64,000 nucleotides of DNA from Chloroflexota bacterium. Its GTDB lineage: Bacteria; Chloroflexota; Anaerolineae; Anaerolineales; UBA4823. The notes under the pieces are model-generated. The model was not told where the DNA came from and did not search any database. It saw nothing but the letters and a program-made list of their open reading frames with translations. Made by a program: the position numbers and the translations under genes. Numbering within the stretch: position 1 is the stretch's first letter; each line of letters starts with the position of its first letter. The stretch covers positions 1 to 64,000 of the forward strand of contig JAAYXE010000173.1 of the NCBI GenBank assembly GCA_012516075.1, written 5' to 3'. Below are positions 4,319-23,869 of the stretch, in pieces.

Positions 4319-4612
4319 TTAAATCTTCACCCAAACAAGACGCGCCAGATCTCGCTCCAGAGCCAGTTCAATATTCTCAACCTGGATAATGGTCACCGGT
4401 GTGGGCTGCACAACGCTGAGCGGGTGTCCGGGGATGACACCGTAGGACTGCAGCTGCGCCCGGCGGTCCGGAGAAATCCTGTTCGAAAAGCCGGTGACTG
4501 TGGCCGTTTTGCCTGGTGAAAGGTCTGCGAGGGTCATTTCCTGGGTGGCCTGGTGCGATACTGCGGGGGTAGGTTGGGGAACTGCGCTAACTTGGATACC
4601 GAGAATTGCCAT
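4319..4612 (-). CDS. feoA: FeoA-domain protein
   Basis: FeoA is a small SH3-like cytoplasmic partner of the ferrous iron transporter FeoB. The core begins at MTLADLSPGKTATVTGFSN and continues with RRAQLQSYGVIPGHPLSVV and a final beta strand. The start is set at ATG 4612, nine bases after the purine run AAGGAAAA; ATG 4621 is possible but sits too close to it. This leaves about 25 extra residues before the FeoA core. It is the last gene of the fur-feoB-zinc ribbon-feoA run, which is the reverse of the common feoA-feoB order. Confidence 0.85.
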   Translation of the reverse strand: MAILGIQVSAVPQPTPAVSHQATQEMTLADLSPGKTATVTGFSNRISPDRRAQLQSYGVIPGHPLSVVQPTPVTIIQVENIELALERDLARLVWVKI

Positions 4613-4661
4613 AATCGTCATTTTCCTTCAGCAGTGATTGGATAATCCTTTGCAATGCAGA

Positions 4662-4895
4662 TCAGGGTACCGCGTGCGTACCTCCTTCGGGCTTGGAGGC
4701 AGGGCTGAAGCGTGAGAACAACCGGGTGGCAAGGTTCGCCAGCCTGGACTGCCGTGTGTTGACGGTTTCAAAGCCGCAGGTGGGACAGCGGGTCAGCAGG
4801 CAGCCTTTGTGGAGCGGGCAGGACTGGCAGGCTGCGTTTTCGTTGGGGTCAAACAGGCTGCCGCAGACGGGGCAGGTGATCAGTAAATCGTTCAT
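4662..4895 (-). CDS. Small zinc-ribbon protein of the feo operon
   Basis: A 77-residue protein with two clusters of paired cysteines (CPVCGSLFD, then CQSCPLHKGCLLTRCPTCGF), i.e. seven Cys in the first 45 residues, suggesting one zinc site plus a further metal or Fe-S site. The ATG at 4895 overlaps the feoB stop as ATGA and has AGGATGGGG in front; ATG 4904 in the same frame is the alternative. Small Cys-rich proteins between feoB and feoA are often annotated as FeoC-like, but this one has no winged-helix pattern, so I leave it unnamed. The overlap suggests coupled translation with FeoB. Confidence 0.75.
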   Translation of the reverse strand: MNDLLITCPVCGSLFDPNENAACQSCPLHKGCLLTRCPTCGFETVNTRQSRLANLATRLFSRFSPASKPEGGTHAVP

Positions 4896-6865
4896 AAGCC
4901 CCATCCTGCGAGCATCAGCCCGCGCTGCAGAAGACCACCGACCAGGAAGGCCAGCGGCATGATCAGGACCAGCATCCCCAGCGATGCCTTCCAGCCGCGT
5001 TCCTTTGCGATCATCAGAACGCTGGCAATGCAGGGGATAAAGAGCGTGATGGTGACCATGGCGACCACTACCTGCAGGGGTGAAAGCAGTCCATGGGATT
5101 CCATTACGAACAGACCGGTTGCACCGAAATCACGGCGCAGGAAACCCATCAGAAACGCCGCACTGGCTTCTGCTGGAAGGCCCAGCCAGCCGGTTACCAG
5201 TGGTTCGGTCAGGCGGATCAGTGCAGCGAGGATACCGGTTTTATCAAGGGCGAACATGAGCGCTGCGCCAATCAGAAATAAAGGCACGACTTCCTTGACA
5301 TACCATTCCAGGCGGGTGAGGGTCTTCAGTAAAACATTCGAGATTAGCGGCAGGCGCATCGGGGGCAGTTCTACCAGCAGGTTGGTGCGTTCACCGGGCA
5401 TCAGGCGAGCGGCTAACCAGCCTACGACGAGCAGCACCAGCAGGACCACCGCTCCCCAGATGATGGCTGCGGTCAGCGAAATTCCGGCCAGCAAGCCCAT
5501 CACCACGCCTAACTGTGCAGAGCAGGGGATCGCCAGGGCCAGCAGGAGCGTCACCAGCAAACGCTCACGCTTGCTTTCCAGCACCCGGGTTGTGACCGTT
5601 GCCATGGTGACACAGCCCAGGCCCAGCACCATCGGCAGAACGGCTTTGCCGTTCAACCCCAGGAACTGGAACAGACGGTTGCTCAACGCTGCCAGACGGG
5701 GCAGATAGCCGGAGTCTTCCAGAATCGAGAAAGCCAGGAAGAAGGTAGTGACAATCGGAAGGATCAGCGCCAGGGCGTAGGTGATGCCCATGGTCCACAA
5801 TCCATATTCACCTACCAGGAAGTCAGCGATCAGCGTTGACGGGATCAGGTTGTATGCCAGATCAATTATGGCGGGATTGACGATCTCTCCGAACAGATTC
5901 TCTTCAAGCAGGTCAACCAGTGTGCCGGCTCCAAAAACCCCCACAAACCAGTAAAGACCATAGAGGACTGCAGCAAGGATAAACAGGCCCCAGACCGGGT
6001 GAGTGGTCAGCCGGCCGAGCTGTGCAGAAAATCCCTGCTTACCGGTCTGTTTGACCTTCAGTACCTCCCGAGTTGTTTGATCGACAAACTCCAAACGCAC
6101 CTGCTGGATTACCACGGACAGCGGTTCGGCGAAGGACTGCTGCAGAGTATCGCGCTGTGCGCACAGCTCCTGGTAAACATCCTGATCCAGGTTTGCCTTC
6201 ATCCAGGTCTCGCTGACGGGATCCCTGCTCAACCACATCAACGCCAGGGAGCGCGGTGAAATGGGCGTGTCGTTCAGGCGGGCGCTGATCGCTGTGACCG
6301 CACTTTCCACCGGCTCGGGATAATCCAGGTGCAGGTCAGGGGTGCTGGCGGTGCGTACAGCGGCGATTATTTCGTTCACCCCCTGCCCGTGCACCGCGGT
6401 GGTGGGTATTACATGGCAGCTCAGCCGTTCACTCAATAAAGGCATGTTGATGGTTACACCCCGGGACTGGGCTTCGTCCATCATGTTCAAGGCTACGATC
6501 ATGGGTAGGCCCATCTCGGCGAGCTGTACGGTCAGAAGCAGGGTGCGGCGCAGATTCTTAGCGTCGCCAACCTGAAGGATGGCTTTCAACCGCTCATTAA
6601 AAAGCACACGAGCGGTTACCTGTTCATCCTCCGAGTGCGGGGGAAAGGTGACCACTCCGGGGGTATCCACCAGGGCGAGGTCAGGAAGTTCACGGATGGT
6701 GCCGCGCGCAATCTCAACCGTTGTCCCTGGATAATTTGACACCGCCACGCGCTGCCCGGTCAGGTGATGAAAAATGACCGACTTACCAACATTTGGGTGT
6801 CCTACCAGCGCAATACTACCGCTGCCAATATGATTGATCGTAGTTCCAGAGTTATGACACTGCAT
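4892..6865 (-). CDS. feoB: Ferrous iron transport protein B
   Basis: FeoB imports Fe2+ across the cytoplasmic membrane, with a GTPase domain at its N-terminus. Visible are the G1 loop GHPNVGKS (residues 22-29), NYPGTTVE (G2), DTPG (G3) and NMMDEA (G4), then a helical insulator, the two Gate repeats and about ten membrane helices ending near residue 657. Length is normal. It follows fur by nine bases and overlaps the zinc-ribbon gene, so the group is one operon, probably repressed by Fur through the operator at 7346-7370. Confidence 0.97.
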   Translation of the reverse strand: MQCHNSGTTINHIGSGSIALVGHPNVGKSVIFHHLTGQRVAVSNYPGTTVEIARGTIRELPDLALVDTPGVVTFPPHSEDEQVTARVLFNERLKAILQVGDAKNLRRTLLLTVQLAEMGLPMIVALNMMDEAQSRGVTINMPLLSERLSCHVIPTTAVHGQGVNEIIAAVRTASTPDLHLDYPEPVESAVTAISARLNDTPISPRSLALMWLSRDPVSETWMKANLDQDVYQELCAQRDTLQQSFAEPLSVVIQQVRLEFVDQTTREVLKVKQTGKQGFSAQLGRLTTHPVWGLFILAAVLYGLYWFVGVFGAGTLVDLLEENLFGEIVNPAIIDLAYNLIPSTLIADFLVGEYGLWTMGITYALALILPIVTTFFLAFSILEDSGYLPRLAALSNRLFQFLGLNGKAVLPMVLGLGCVTMATVTTRVLESKRERLLVTLLLALAIPCSAQLGVVMGLLAGISLTAAIIWGAVVLLVLLVVGWLAARLMPGERTNLLVELPPMRLPLISNVLLKTLTRLEWYVKEVVPLFLIGAALMFALDKTGILAALIRLTEPLVTGWLGLPAEASAAFLMGFLRRDFGATGLFVMESHGLLSPLQVVVAMVTITLFIPCIASVLMIAKERGWKASLGMLVLIMPLAFLVGGLLQRGLMLAGWGL

Positions 6866-7345: not shown

Positions 7346-7374
7346 CTTATTGCAAATGATTTGCAGTAATCATA
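7346..7374 (-). promoter_or_regulatory. Fur-type operator and -10 box of the fur-feoB operon
   Basis: On the minus strand the half-sites TTACTGCAA and TTGCAATAAG are separated by five bases (7346-7370), with a perfect GCAAAT/ATTTGC core. A -10 box TATGAT (7374-7369) overlaps its upstream edge; no good -35 box is seen. Nine bases separate the site from the ATG. The same half-sites, four bases apart, stand at 19347-19370 before the second Fur-family gene, again nine bases from the ATG. Binding by a Fur protein is inference. Confidence 0.7.
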
Positions 7375-19316: not shown

Positions 19317-19370
19317 TTGTGCTCCGGTTTCTTATTGATATAATTTCTTACTGCAATAAGTTGCAATAAG
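19317..19370 (+). promoter_or_regulatory. Promoter and operator of the second Fur-family gene
   Basis: A -10 box TATAAT (19339-19344) has a weak TTGTGC -35 box 16 bases upstream (19317-19322). Immediately after it lies the operator-like dyad TTACTGCAA, four bases, TTGCAATAAG (19348-19370). The site covers the expected start of transcription and is nine bases from the ATG. The half-sites are the same as those before the fur-feoB operon. Confidence 0.7.
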
Positions 19371-19882: not shown

Positions 19883-20839
19883 ATGCATTATTCACCTGCG
19901 CCCATGCATATACCGGATGGATTCCTGTCTGTACTGGTTTCGGTCATCTTATGGGTGATTTCTGCGCCGGTCGTGGCTTATGCGCTGAAGCGCGTGGGCC
20001 AGGATATGGGAGAACGCCAGGTGCCCATGATGGGTGTGCTGGCAGCCGCGATCTTTGCCGGCCAGATGCTTAATTTCACCGTCGCCGGGGGCACCTCCGG
20101 GCACCTGATGGGTGCCGCGCTCGCAACGATCCTGTCAGGCCCCTGGGCCGCCGTGCTGGTGATGACCAGCGTGGTCAGCATTCAGGCCCTGATCTTTCAG
20201 GACGGCGGGCTGCTGGTGCTGGGGGCGAATATCTTCAATATGGGGATCGTGGGCGTGGCGGTCTCCTATGCTGTCTTTCACCTGCTGCGGCGGCTTCCCG
20301 GCGGCCGGACGATGAAGCTGCTCATTCCCGGGTTTATCTCCGCCTGGGCTTCCATCGTCGCCTCTGCCCTGGCTGTCAGCCTGCAGCTGGCCATTTCAGG
20401 TACCACGCCGGCCAGTCTGGCCATTCCCGCCATGGCTGGCGTCCATGCCCTGATCGGGATTGGGGAAGGCCTGATCACAGTGGGAGCGCTGGCCTTTCTG
20501 GCCGCGACCCGGCCGGATCTGCTCCAGCCTGGGCGTGAAGGAGCCCCAGCCGGCCGTGCTGTGTGGTTTTTTGGTCTCCTGCTGGCAGCCGGCCTGGCTG
20601 TGCTCTCTCCGCTGGCTTCTTCCAATCCGGATGGCCTGGAGGCGGTGGCCGAGCGGCTGGGCTTTATCGAAACTGCCCGCGAGCCGCTGTACAGGCTTAT
20701 CCCCGATTATCTGTTCCCGGGTATCTCCAATGAAGCCCTGGCAACCATCGCGGCCGGAATTGTGGGCATACTGCTGGTCTGTGGTGTGATCCTGGCTGCA
20801 GGTCATATACGCCGCGGCCCCGAAGCTTCGAACAGGTAG
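19883..20839 (+). CDS. cbiM: Nickel/cobalt ECF transporter component CbiM fused to a PDGLE domain
   Basis: The substrate-binding membrane subunit of a group I ECF importer. The N-terminal MHIPDGFLS (after seven extra residues) is the CbiM signature, where the N-terminus and His bind the metal; about seven helices follow to residue 215. The C-terminal 90 residues hold the PDGLE-type domain (SNPDGLEAVAERLGF, one helix at each end), the equivalent of CbiN/NikN, here fused. The start has CAGGAGG seven bases upstream. Ni2+ versus Co2+ cannot be decided; no cobalamin synthesis genes are in the window. Confidence 0.92.
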   Translation: MHYSPAPMHIPDGFLSVLVSVILWVISAPVVAYALKRVGQDMGERQVPMMGVLAAAIFAGQMLNFTVAGGTSGHLMGAALATILSGPWAAVLVMTSVVSIQALIFQDGGLLVLGANIFNMGIVGVAVSYAVFHLLRRLPGGRTMKLLIPGFISAWASIVASALAVSLQLAISGTTPASLAIPAMAGVHALIGIGEGLITVGALAFLAATRPDLLQPGREGAPAGRAVWFFGLLLAAGLAVLSPLASSNPDGLEAVAERLGFIETAREPLYRLIPDYLFPGISNEALATIAAGIVGILLVCGVILAAGHIRRGPEASNR

Positions 20840-20841
20840 GC

Positions 20842-21645
20842 GTGCACATCCACTTTCTCGATCCTTACCGTCCGCTGCGCAGCCCGGTGCACGCGCTGGA
20901 TCCGCGTGTGAAGCTGGTGCTGACGCTGGCTTTTATTCTCACGACTGCGCTCACCCCGCAGGGCGCATGGCCGGTATATATTCTGCTATTATCGCTGGCA
21001 CTTTCGGTGCAGGTGCTCTCCGGGCTGGGTGTGGGTTATGTGCAAAAGCGTGCCGGGCTGGCGCTGCCGTTTGTGCTGGCAGCCCTGCCGCTGCTCTTTA
21101 CTGTGGAAGGGCCGGCACTGTTCAATTTTCAGCTCGGCTTGTGGCGTTTCGCTCTCACTTCCAGCGGGCTGGAACGCTTTGCCGGTGTTGCCATTAAATC
21201 CTGGATATCGGTACAAGCGGCTGTGGTACTGGCTTCGAGCACTTCGTTCCCCGATCTGCTGGTCGCTATGCGGGCCATCCGGATACCGAAGCTGCTGGTT
21301 GCCATCTTTGGGCTGATGTGGCGTTATTTGTTCGTATTTGGCGATGAGGCTCTGAGGCTGCTGCGCGCCCGGGCTGCCCGCAGTGGACAGGCCGTGGACA
21401 ACGCCCTCAAACCGGGCGGAAGCCTGGCCTGGCGGGCACGCGTGACCGGCGGAATGGCAGGGAGCCTGTTCCTGCGTGCCTTCGATCGCAGTGACCGCAT
21501 ATACTCCGCCATGCTCTCACGAGGCTACGACGGCGAAGTCCGAAGTCTGCCGCTGCCGCCTCTGCAGCCCCGGCACACGCTGATCCTGGCGACAGGCCTG
21601 GTCCTGCTGATCGGGCTGCTTTCTCTGGCTTATCTCCTTCAGTAG
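20842..21645 (+). CDS. cbiQ: ECF transporter transmembrane component CbiQ
   Basis: The coupling membrane subunit of the importer, 267 residues, with about five helices. The family motif is seen as LLRARAARSG and the second Ala-Arg coupling segment as AMLSRGYDGEV. It starts at GTG 20842, two bases after the cbiM stop. It transmits ATP hydrolysis by CbiO to CbiM. Confidence 0.93.
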   Translation: MHIHFLDPYRPLRSPVHALDPRVKLVLTLAFILTTALTPQGAWPVYILLLSLALSVQVLSGLGVGYVQKRAGLALPFVLAALPLLFTVEGPALFNFQLGLWRFALTSSGLERFAGVAIKSWISVQAAVVLASSTSFPDLLVAMRAIRIPKLLVAIFGLMWRYLFVFGDEALRLLRARAARSGQAVDNALKPGGSLAWRARVTGGMAGSLFLRAFDRSDRIYSAMLSRGYDGEVRSLPLPPLQPRHTLILATGLVLLIGLLSLAYLLQ

Positions 21646-21651
21646 GTTGAT

Positions 21652-22362
21652 ATGCACCATTCCATCGAAGTTGAGAATCTTTCCTTTACATATCCCGATG
21701 GCCGTCAGGCCCTGCGGGACGTGACACTCTGCATTCAGCCGGATGAGAAAGTAGCCCTGGTGGGCCCGAACGGGGCCGGAAAATCCACACTGCTGCTGCA
21801 TTTGAATGGGATCCTGCGCGGCGAGGGACGGGTGAAAGTTTGCGGACTGGAGGTCAACGACAGGAACGTGAAACACATCCGGGCGCGCGTGGGAATGGTA
21901 TTCCAGTCCCCGGATGACCAGTTATTCTCACCCCGGGTTTATGATGATGTCGCTTTTGGCCCCCTTTATATGGGGCTGCCGGTGGATGAGGTGGATGCCC
22001 GGGTGCACGATGCCCTGGAGGCCGTCGGGATGGGCGGCTACGAAGAGCGGACCTCGCATCACCTGAGTGTGGGGGAGAAAAAGCGCATCGCCATTGCCAC
22101 AGTCCTTTCGATGAAGCCTGAAGTGCTGGTTCTGGACGAACCCACGGCCGGCCTGGACCCGCGCGCCCGGAGGTCACTGATCCAGCTGCTGCGCGAGCTT
22201 CCCCTGACTATGCTGGTTTCCACCCACGACATGCGTATGGTGGAGGAATTGTTCCCCCGCATGGTGATCATGGATGAGGGCCGTGTTGTGGTCGACGGCC
22301 CCACCGGGCAGCTGATGTCTGATGAAAAACTGCTGGAGGCGCACGGCCTGGAGCGGTATTAA
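21652..22362 (+). CDS. cbiO: ECF transporter ATPase CbiO
   Basis: The ABC ATPase of the importer, 236 residues. Walker A GPNGAGKST (about residues 38-46), Q-loop VFQSPDDQLF, signature LSVGEKKR, Walker B VLVLDEPT and the switch His in STHDMRM are all intact. It follows cbiQ by six bases and closes the fur-cbiMQO group. A single CbiO implies a homodimeric ATPase. Confidence 0.94.
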   Translation: MHHSIEVENLSFTYPDGRQALRDVTLCIQPDEKVALVGPNGAGKSTLLLHLNGILRGEGRVKVCGLEVNDRNVKHIRARVGMVFQSPDDQLFSPRVYDDVAFGPLYMGLPVDEVDARVHDALEAVGMGGYEERTSHHLSVGEKKRIAIATVLSMKPEVLVLDEPTAGLDPRARRSLIQLLRELPLTMLVSTHDMRMVEELFPRMVIMDEGRVVVDGPTGQLMSDEKLLEAHGLERY

Positions 22363-22429: not shown

Positions 22430-23674
22430 TCAGTCCGCGGCAGCGGAGGTCTCTTCCACTTCCACGAGGCCGGCAGCCGCGCGCAGGGCAGCGACACGGT
22501 CGGTGCGCTCCCAGGGCAGATCCAGGTCGTCGCGGCCGAAGTGGCCGTAAGTGGCGGTCTGGCGGTAAATGGGCCGGCGCAGGTCCAGGTCACGGATGAT
22601 CGCGCCGGGGCGCAGATCGAAGTTTTCCGTGATCAGGCGGGAGATCTCCTCATCCGGAATTACACCGGTGCCGAAGGTCTCCACATTGACGCTCAGCGGA
22701 TGGGCGACGCCGATGGCGTATGCGACCTGGATCTCGCAGCGCTCGGCAAGGCCAGCAGCCACCACGTTCTTGGCCGCCCAGCGGGCTGCGTATGCCGCAG
22801 AGCGGTCGACTTTCGTCGGGTCTTTACCGCTGAATGCGCCGCCGCCGTGACGTCCCATCCCGCCGTACGTGTCGACAATAATCTTGCGGCCGGTCAGCCC
22901 GGAGTCACCCTGCGGTCCGCCGATCACAAAGCGCCCGGTCGGGTTGACGAAAATTTTCAGCCTGTCGTCCACCATCTCGGGCGGGAGCACCGGTTTGATC
23001 ACATGTTCGATGATGGCCTGGCGGATCTCTTCATGGGTTACGTCAGGGTCGTGCTGAGTGCTGATCAGCACAGTTTCCACCCGCTTGGGCTTGCCGTACT
23101 CGTATTCGACGGTTACCTGGCTCTTGCCATCCGGTCGCAGCCAGGGCAGGGTTTTGTCCTTGCGCACTTCGGCCAGGCGGCGTGAAAGGCGGTGCGCCAG
23201 ATAAATGGGCATCGGCATCAGCACAGGGGTCTCGTTGCAGGCATAGCCAAACATCATTCCCTGGTCGCCGGCGCCGATGGCTTCCACTTCTGCGTCGCTC
23301 ATCCTGCCGTCCTTGGCCTCCAGCGCCTTATCGACGCCCATGGCAATATCGCCGGACTGCTGAGAAATGGCAACCAGCACGCCGCAGCTGTTTCCATCAA
23401 ACCCCTTGAGGCTGCTGTCGTAGCCGATCTCATTCACAACGCGCCGTACCAGCTCGTCATATTCAATTTGGGCACGTGTCGTGATTTCACCGAGCAGGAC
23501 AACAAACCCTGTCTTCGCAGCAGTCTCGCAGGCCACGCGGGAATAGGGGTCCTGTTCCAGACAGGCGTCCAGCACAGCATCGCTGATCTGATCGCAAAGC
23601 TTGTCCGGATGTCCCTCGGTCACCGATTCCGAGGTAAACAAAAGGCTGGGTGCGTTCATAAATGTCGTGTTCAT
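22430..23674 (-). CDS. metK: S-adenosylmethionine synthetase
   Basis: Makes S-adenosylmethionine from ATP and methionine, 414 residues. The signatures are [32 protein letters not shown] (hexapeptide motif) and [19 protein letters not shown] (the P-loop-like nonapeptide). GGAGG precedes the ATG by eleven bases. Its product is the ligand of the riboswitch in its own leader, giving feedback control. It lies downstream of cdsA but has its own promoter. Confidence 0.97.

Positions 23675-23750: not shown

Positions 23751-23869
<119 letters not shown>

Follow-up and report, generated by a model that had tools for sequence, protein, structure and literature searches.

Two predicted Fur-family operators sharing a half-site and differing by one base of spacing, before fur1-feoB and fur2-cbiMQO of a Chloroflexota bacterium

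The textbook Fur box is GATAAT, and the classic 7-1-7 site reads TGATAAT-N-ATTATCA. Fur-family sites of the 7-1-7 type are already known, as are the control of feo and nickel importers and the half-site TTGCAA, a documented Fur-family target. The DNA of the Fur-feoAB1 co-crystal of Magnetospirillum gryphiswaldense, TTAATTGCAAATCATTTGCAATTGC, contains TTGCAAATCATTTGCAA and differs at three bases from the native operator TTAATCGCAACTCATTCGCAATTGC; one Fur dimer is bound, whose Tyr56 and Arg57 contact the half-site (PMC4506495). In Streptomyces, the Nur box reads tTGCaa-N5-ttGCAA (PMC3919588). Even-centred Fur-family motifs also have a precedent in the E. coli Zur motif TRWNAYRWTATAWYRTNWCA, an even palindrome of 20 positions (20 bp) bound as a dimer of dimers (PMC6103462). 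How Fur paralogues with look-alike operators find their own targets is a standing question in many bacteria.

The window analyzed here, a stretch of 64,000 nucleotides from a Chloroflexota genome (contig JAAYXE010000173.1, assembly GCA_012516075.1), contains an inverted repeat before each of two Fur-family genes, fur1 and fur2 (Table 1). A previous sequence-only reading had described the two repeats as the same operator. This is correct for the half-sites, since all 18 half-site positions are identical between site 1 and site 2, and incorrect for the spacers, which comprise five bases (N5) in site 1 and four bases (N4) in site 2. The half-site sequences, both gap lengths and the nine bases separating the sites from the ATG were confirmed by direct reading, and the sites do differ from the textbook GATAAT box, as that reading had pointed out.

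Site 1 is arranged on the minus strand as TATGAT-TACTGCAA-ATCAT-TTGCAATAAG and has the 7-1-7-type core TGCAAAT-C-ATTTGCA. The last T of TATGAT is the first base of the operator; this one-base overlap is the commonest layout among Fur1 orthologues (20 of 35). The operator is followed by G (7346), nine bases AAGGCCCCG and the fur1 ATG (7336). Site 2, an even-centred palindrome spanning 22 bp, has the plus-strand layout TATAAT-TTC-TTACTGCAA-TAAG-TTGCAATAAG and is followed by G (19370), nine bases GGTGGCGCT and the fur2 ATG (19380). The supposed contact with the -10 box is thus found at site 1, whereas at site 2 the hexamer lies three bases (TTC) away. Neither site 1 nor site 2 gave a sigma-70 -35/-10 pair in the consensus scan; therefore, assignment of the -10-like hexamers is based on reading and on orthologue positions.

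Table 1. Features of the two loci (positions in the window).
Feature	Position	Strand	Basis
N5 operator (site 1) TTACTGCAA-ATCAT-TTGCAATAA, before fur1-feoB	7347..7369	-	read directly
-10-like hexamer TATGAT	7369..7374	-	reading and orthologue positions
fur1, Fur-family regulator, Fur clade, 153 aa	6875..7336	-	Pfam FUR 95.1 bits
feoB, ferrous iron transporter, adjoins fur1 3' end	4892..6865	-	TIGR00437 404.9 bits, above cut-off
small Cys-rich ORF between feoB and feoA, 80 aa	4662..4904	-	no family match
feoA	4319..4621	-	Pfam FeoA 45.2 bits
N4 operator (site 2) TTACTGCAA-TAAG-TTGCAATAA, before fur2-cbiMQO	19348..19369	+	read directly
-10-like hexamer TATAAT	19339..19344	+	reading and orthologue positions
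fur2, Nur-like Fur-family regulator, 138 aa	19380..19796	+	PDB match and tree
cbiM/nikM-type ECF substrate component fused to PDGLE (CbiN/NikN-like) domain	19883..20839	+	Pfam CbiM 210.7, PDGLE 44.8 bits
cbiQ, ECF T component	20842..21645	+	TIGR02454 135.2 bits, above cut-off
cbiO, ECF ATPase	21652..22362	+	family searches

Fur1 is a FUR-domain protein (95.1 bits against the Pfam cut-off of 23.1), the closest solved structure of which is Campylobacter Fur. In the tree it is placed in a clade separate from Fur2/Nur (support 100/96). The feoB gene lies directly 3' of fur1 both in the window and in most orthologues. A FUR domain, a 7-1-7 repeat and an iron-uptake target are thus combined at fur1 and site 1, as would be expected for a predicted Fur with its operator. 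The small Cys-rich ORF of this operon has two CPxC-type motifs and gave no Pfam or NCBIfam match; possibly, it represents an extra Feo component.

The best PDB match of Fur2 (E 3.1e-25) is 3EYY, which is Nur of Streptomyces coelicolor (PMC7055735), and in the tree Fur2 and its relatives group with this protein (support 98/98). Relatives with at least 46% identity were found in the named-genome scan among Anaerolineales, Anaerolineae and Chloroflexi/Chloroflexota, together with a few MAGs labelled Chloroflexus and Herpetosiphon. The residues of the two Nur metal sites, which we take to be H33, H86, H88 and H90 in one and H70, H72 and H126 in the other, are partly retained: Fur2 keeps His33, His72, His125 and an HHH run at 87-89, and has Ala at position 70 (Nur His70) and Asp at position 86. 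The gene context suggests nickel or cobalt as the metal sensed by Fur2. A nickel requirement of this organism is plausible, because a search for the NiFe-hydrogenase large-subunit family gave matches in the genome.

Translation from the listed start of cbiM (19883) yields MHYSPAPMHIPDG, and from an inner ATG (19904) MHIPDG. The latter may be the real start, because the N-terminal Met-His of CbiM/NikM binds metal; orthologues at two loci (L218 and L229), however, also show a short leader.

The half-site alone occurs twice in the window against 0.28 copies expected, and 5 of 100 shuffles reach two, which is weak evidence against chance. The complete inverted repeats are not due to chance, because there is one per spacing in the genome, the controls gave no matches and both repeats are kept in relatives. 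In the 4.86-Mb genome, a scan for TTATTGCAA/TTGCAATAA with up to three mismatches in 18 positions found exactly one N5 and one N4 site and no control matches, although the reversed-pattern control used in these scans probably understates the background, because reversal creates CpG; three-mismatch sites were therefore not interpreted. This motif scan, proposed by the sequence-only reading, revealed no single shared regulon, since each spacing has only one site. The comparison of orthologous promoters, proposed there as well, showed that the motif is kept 5' of fur1 and fur2 orthologues.

The trailing AAG common to both sites merges with a purine run resembling a Shine-Dalgarno sequence; because of this, the extra G and the nine-base distance probably reflect constraints of the start site. 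In orthologues the distance from operator to start varies. The same merging, together with the weak over-representation of the half-site, could be taken to mean that the sites are accidental or are mere promoter and Shine-Dalgarno sequence. The probability of this is negligible, given their retention in more than 100 promoters at variable distances from the start codon and zero control matches in the whole-genome scans. The data support regarding both sites as conserved operator-like elements, each of which would overlap the promoter of a Fur-family gene heading a metal-import operon.

No riboswitch was found at either promoter by Rfam, and the terminator scan gave nothing at site 1 or site 2. 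Elsewhere in the window, a SAM riboswitch (RF00162, 89 bits, Rfam; 23751-23867, minus strand) is located 5' of a methionine-adenosyltransferase-like ORF (22430-23674, minus strand).

The gap difference, which the sequence-only reading treated as incidental, is what distinguishes site 1 from site 2 most consistently across relatives. Matches to TTATTGCAA and TTGCAATAA were scored in the orthologue promoters with every spacer length between 0 and 12. The first set had 5 as the best spacer in 16 of 18 Fur1 rows and 4 in all 30 Fur2 rows; in the two most distant Fur1 rows (L027, L028) an overlapping 11-base arrangement scored best and 5 next best. A further 77 Fur2-type loci, taken from named genomes, scored best with 4 in 67 cases and with 5 in no case. 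In the class-wide Fur1 set the best spacer was mostly 5, sometimes 11 and never 4. In a head-to-head count limited to spacers 4 and 5 and to promoters scoring at least 14/18 (8 promoters in each clade set fell below this threshold and were left uncounted), the Anaerolineae have 35 N5 and 0 N4 promoters in the Fur1 clade and 0 N5 and 93 N4 in the Fur2 clade; the five-base spacing of the Nur box is hence absent from all 93 scorable Fur2 sites. The corresponding Fisher p of 3e-32 for spacing versus paralogue is descriptive only, as the rows share descent and independence is overstated. In the eleven genomes that have both paralogues, each promoter shows the spacing of its own clade. The four-base spacer recurs at several Nur-like genes of other Chloroflexota groups, and others are without a recognizable site. 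The preferred N5 spacer is A-T-S-A-T (S, C or G). In the weakly conserved N4 spacers, the preference is for W-A at the second and third bases (W, A or T). Upstream of one Fur1 orthologue (G097, L026) there are tandem N5 sites (G097:C5:605636-605658 and 605660-605682).

N4 operators are present in six genomes that yielded no Fur1-clade gene (G023, G042, G048, G061, G073, G095). N5 operators, in turn, are present without a close Fur2 in two genomes (G050, G089) and also in three less complete ones (G027, G035, G077). Since each operator persists without the other paralogue, the latter is unlikely to be the sole reader.

When 251 genomes of the order were scanned for the N4 or N5 pattern with up to one mismatch, N4 was found in 41 genomes and N5 in 16, always as a single copy, and neither pattern gave control matches. 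N4 sites precede fur2 and/or cbiM in 37 of the 41 cases: 34 lie before a Fur2-like gene and cbiM, one before a Fur2-like gene alone and two directly before cbiM with no regulator alongside. The N5 sites lie before a Fur gene in all 16 cases, 15 of them with feoB next and one with the Fur gene alone. No crossover (an N4 site by feoB or an N5 site by cbiM) was observed in the 251 genomes. The four N4 matches located elsewhere (L219, L220, L221, L230) are likely due to chance; all but L220 are apparently inside open reading frames.

Both cbiM-only sites (L218, L229) are perfect N4 sites directly 5' of cbiM, with no fur gene adjoining. Because of these two cases, the importer operon itself, besides the regulator, appears to be an N4 target. 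They also suggest that cbiM could be regulated in trans there, after loss or relocation of the regulator.

The sequence-only reading had concluded from the identity of the half-sites that one repressor controls both operons or that control is mutual. According to this explanation, Fur1 and/or Fur2 would bind both sites, a spacer of four or five bases would be tolerated, and iron and Ni/Co import would be co-regulated. It could draw on the 18 identical half-site positions and on the Tyr-Arg pair of the recognition helix, which is invariant in alignments of both the Fur1 and Fur2 clades. The strict paralogue-specific spacing across Anaerolineae, the lack of crossover in the motif-first scan and the persistence of each operator without the other paralogue nevertheless speak against it, and we regard this explanation as improbable, a single shared repressor being unlikely. 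Residual cross-binding between the sites is plausible, because all 18 half-site positions are shared in this genome.

With good though not full confidence, we favour a model of two distinct autorepressor circuits, both metal-dependent, in which odd half-site spacing in one and even spacing in the other would prevent mixing. Fur1, as a Fur, would repress fur1-feoB(-feoA) when iron is sufficient, through the N5 operator, TTATTGCAAAT-N-ATTTGCAATAA, a 7-1-7-type site over the -10/start region. Fur2, of the Nur clade, would repress fur2-cbiMQO through the N4 operator, TTATTGCAA-N4-TTGCAATAA, when nickel or cobalt is sufficient. The same TTGCAA half-site could be read by both regulators through the conserved Tyr-Arg pair, and the fit of the dimer would depend on the central bases and on the spacing (11 versus 10 bp centre to centre, with an odd centre in N5 and an even one in N4). 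One added base in B-DNA displaces the half-sites relative to each other by about 3.4 angstroms and turns them by about 34 degrees, and a dimer of fixed geometry would sense such a shift. Both sites cover the interval that separates the -10 hexamer from the ribosome-binding site, and a repressor bound there would block RNA polymerase. Repression by the metal-loaded form is presumed by analogy with what is known of Fur and Nur, and binding, the metals sensed and spacing as the discriminator are likewise inferred.

Alternatively, each regulator could have its own operator, with discrimination realized by stoichiometry or central bases: N5 would accept one dimer, and N4 overlapping dimers, in the manner suggested for E. 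coli Zur. The even-centred, 20-bp Zur motif with its dimer of dimers (PMC6103462), the different central bases of N5 and N4 spacers and the palindromic nature of TTGCAA itself are consistent with such a model. The N4 operator, however, is only 22 bp long with a weakly conserved spacer and offers no clear second dimer site, which makes this alternative rather doubtful, if a possible one.

Two further Fur-family proteins are encoded in this genome (four in all), at loci L003 and L004 on contigs C136 and C132 of G000. One of these fur genes precedes a P-type metal ATPase gene and has an AT-rich palindromic stretch 5' (TTATAATCATTCTATATTTATAATGGTTATTATTTAAG); the other ends a znuBC-like zinc transporter operon. 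A third regulator, either one of these proteins or an unrelated factor, could bind one or both sites in principle. It is a very unlikely candidate given the neighbourhoods of the two genes, the AT-rich region in front of the fur gene in L003, which is without TTGCAA, and the fact that the sites track the fur1 and fur2 orthologues themselves.

Returning to two separate circuits, their likely meaning is insulation and not shared control. On balance, we lean slightly towards the view that a one-base spacing difference insulates two Fur paralogues in one Chloroflexota cell, and that N4 is a distinct operator architecture, split from the Streptomyces N5 type with the half-site unchanged. The loci provide a near-minimal natural pair within one genome, with the same half-sites and promoter position, one base apart, class-wide. 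The motif could also serve for predictions of iron and Ni/Co regulation in Chloroflexota, few of which are tractable. A search of the open library, an incomplete survey of the literature, gave no account of Fur-family control through this motif in the phylum; the four-base, even-centred operator of the Nur-like clade and the strict separation of Fur paralogues by one base look new.

Among the described systems, site 1 resembles the Magnetospirillum co-crystal DNA, in which TTGCAAATCATTTGCAA is one base from the window site: the half-sites, the five-base spacer, the ATCAT centre and the feo target are the same. Unlike feoAB1 of Magnetospirillum, the window locus has its regulator gene within the operon, and its outer arms reach as far as TTA/TAA. 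As in the classic Fur box, N5 is a 7-1-7 inverted repeat, TGCAAAT-N-ATTTGCA, over an iron-uptake promoter, whereas its arms have CA for AT at positions 3-4; the N4 operator does not fit the 7-1-7 scheme. Fur2 groups with S. coelicolor Nur, which is its best structural match; the half-site is TTGCAA in both, and the fur2 gene precedes a predicted Ni/Co importer. Fur2 differs in Ala at Nur His70, in an importer of the ECF CbiMQO type instead of NikABCDE and in the Chloroflexota spacer of four bases instead of five. Spacing is thus not fixed across the wider Nur family, because Streptomyces Nur, the nearest characterized relative of Fur2, is reported with N5.
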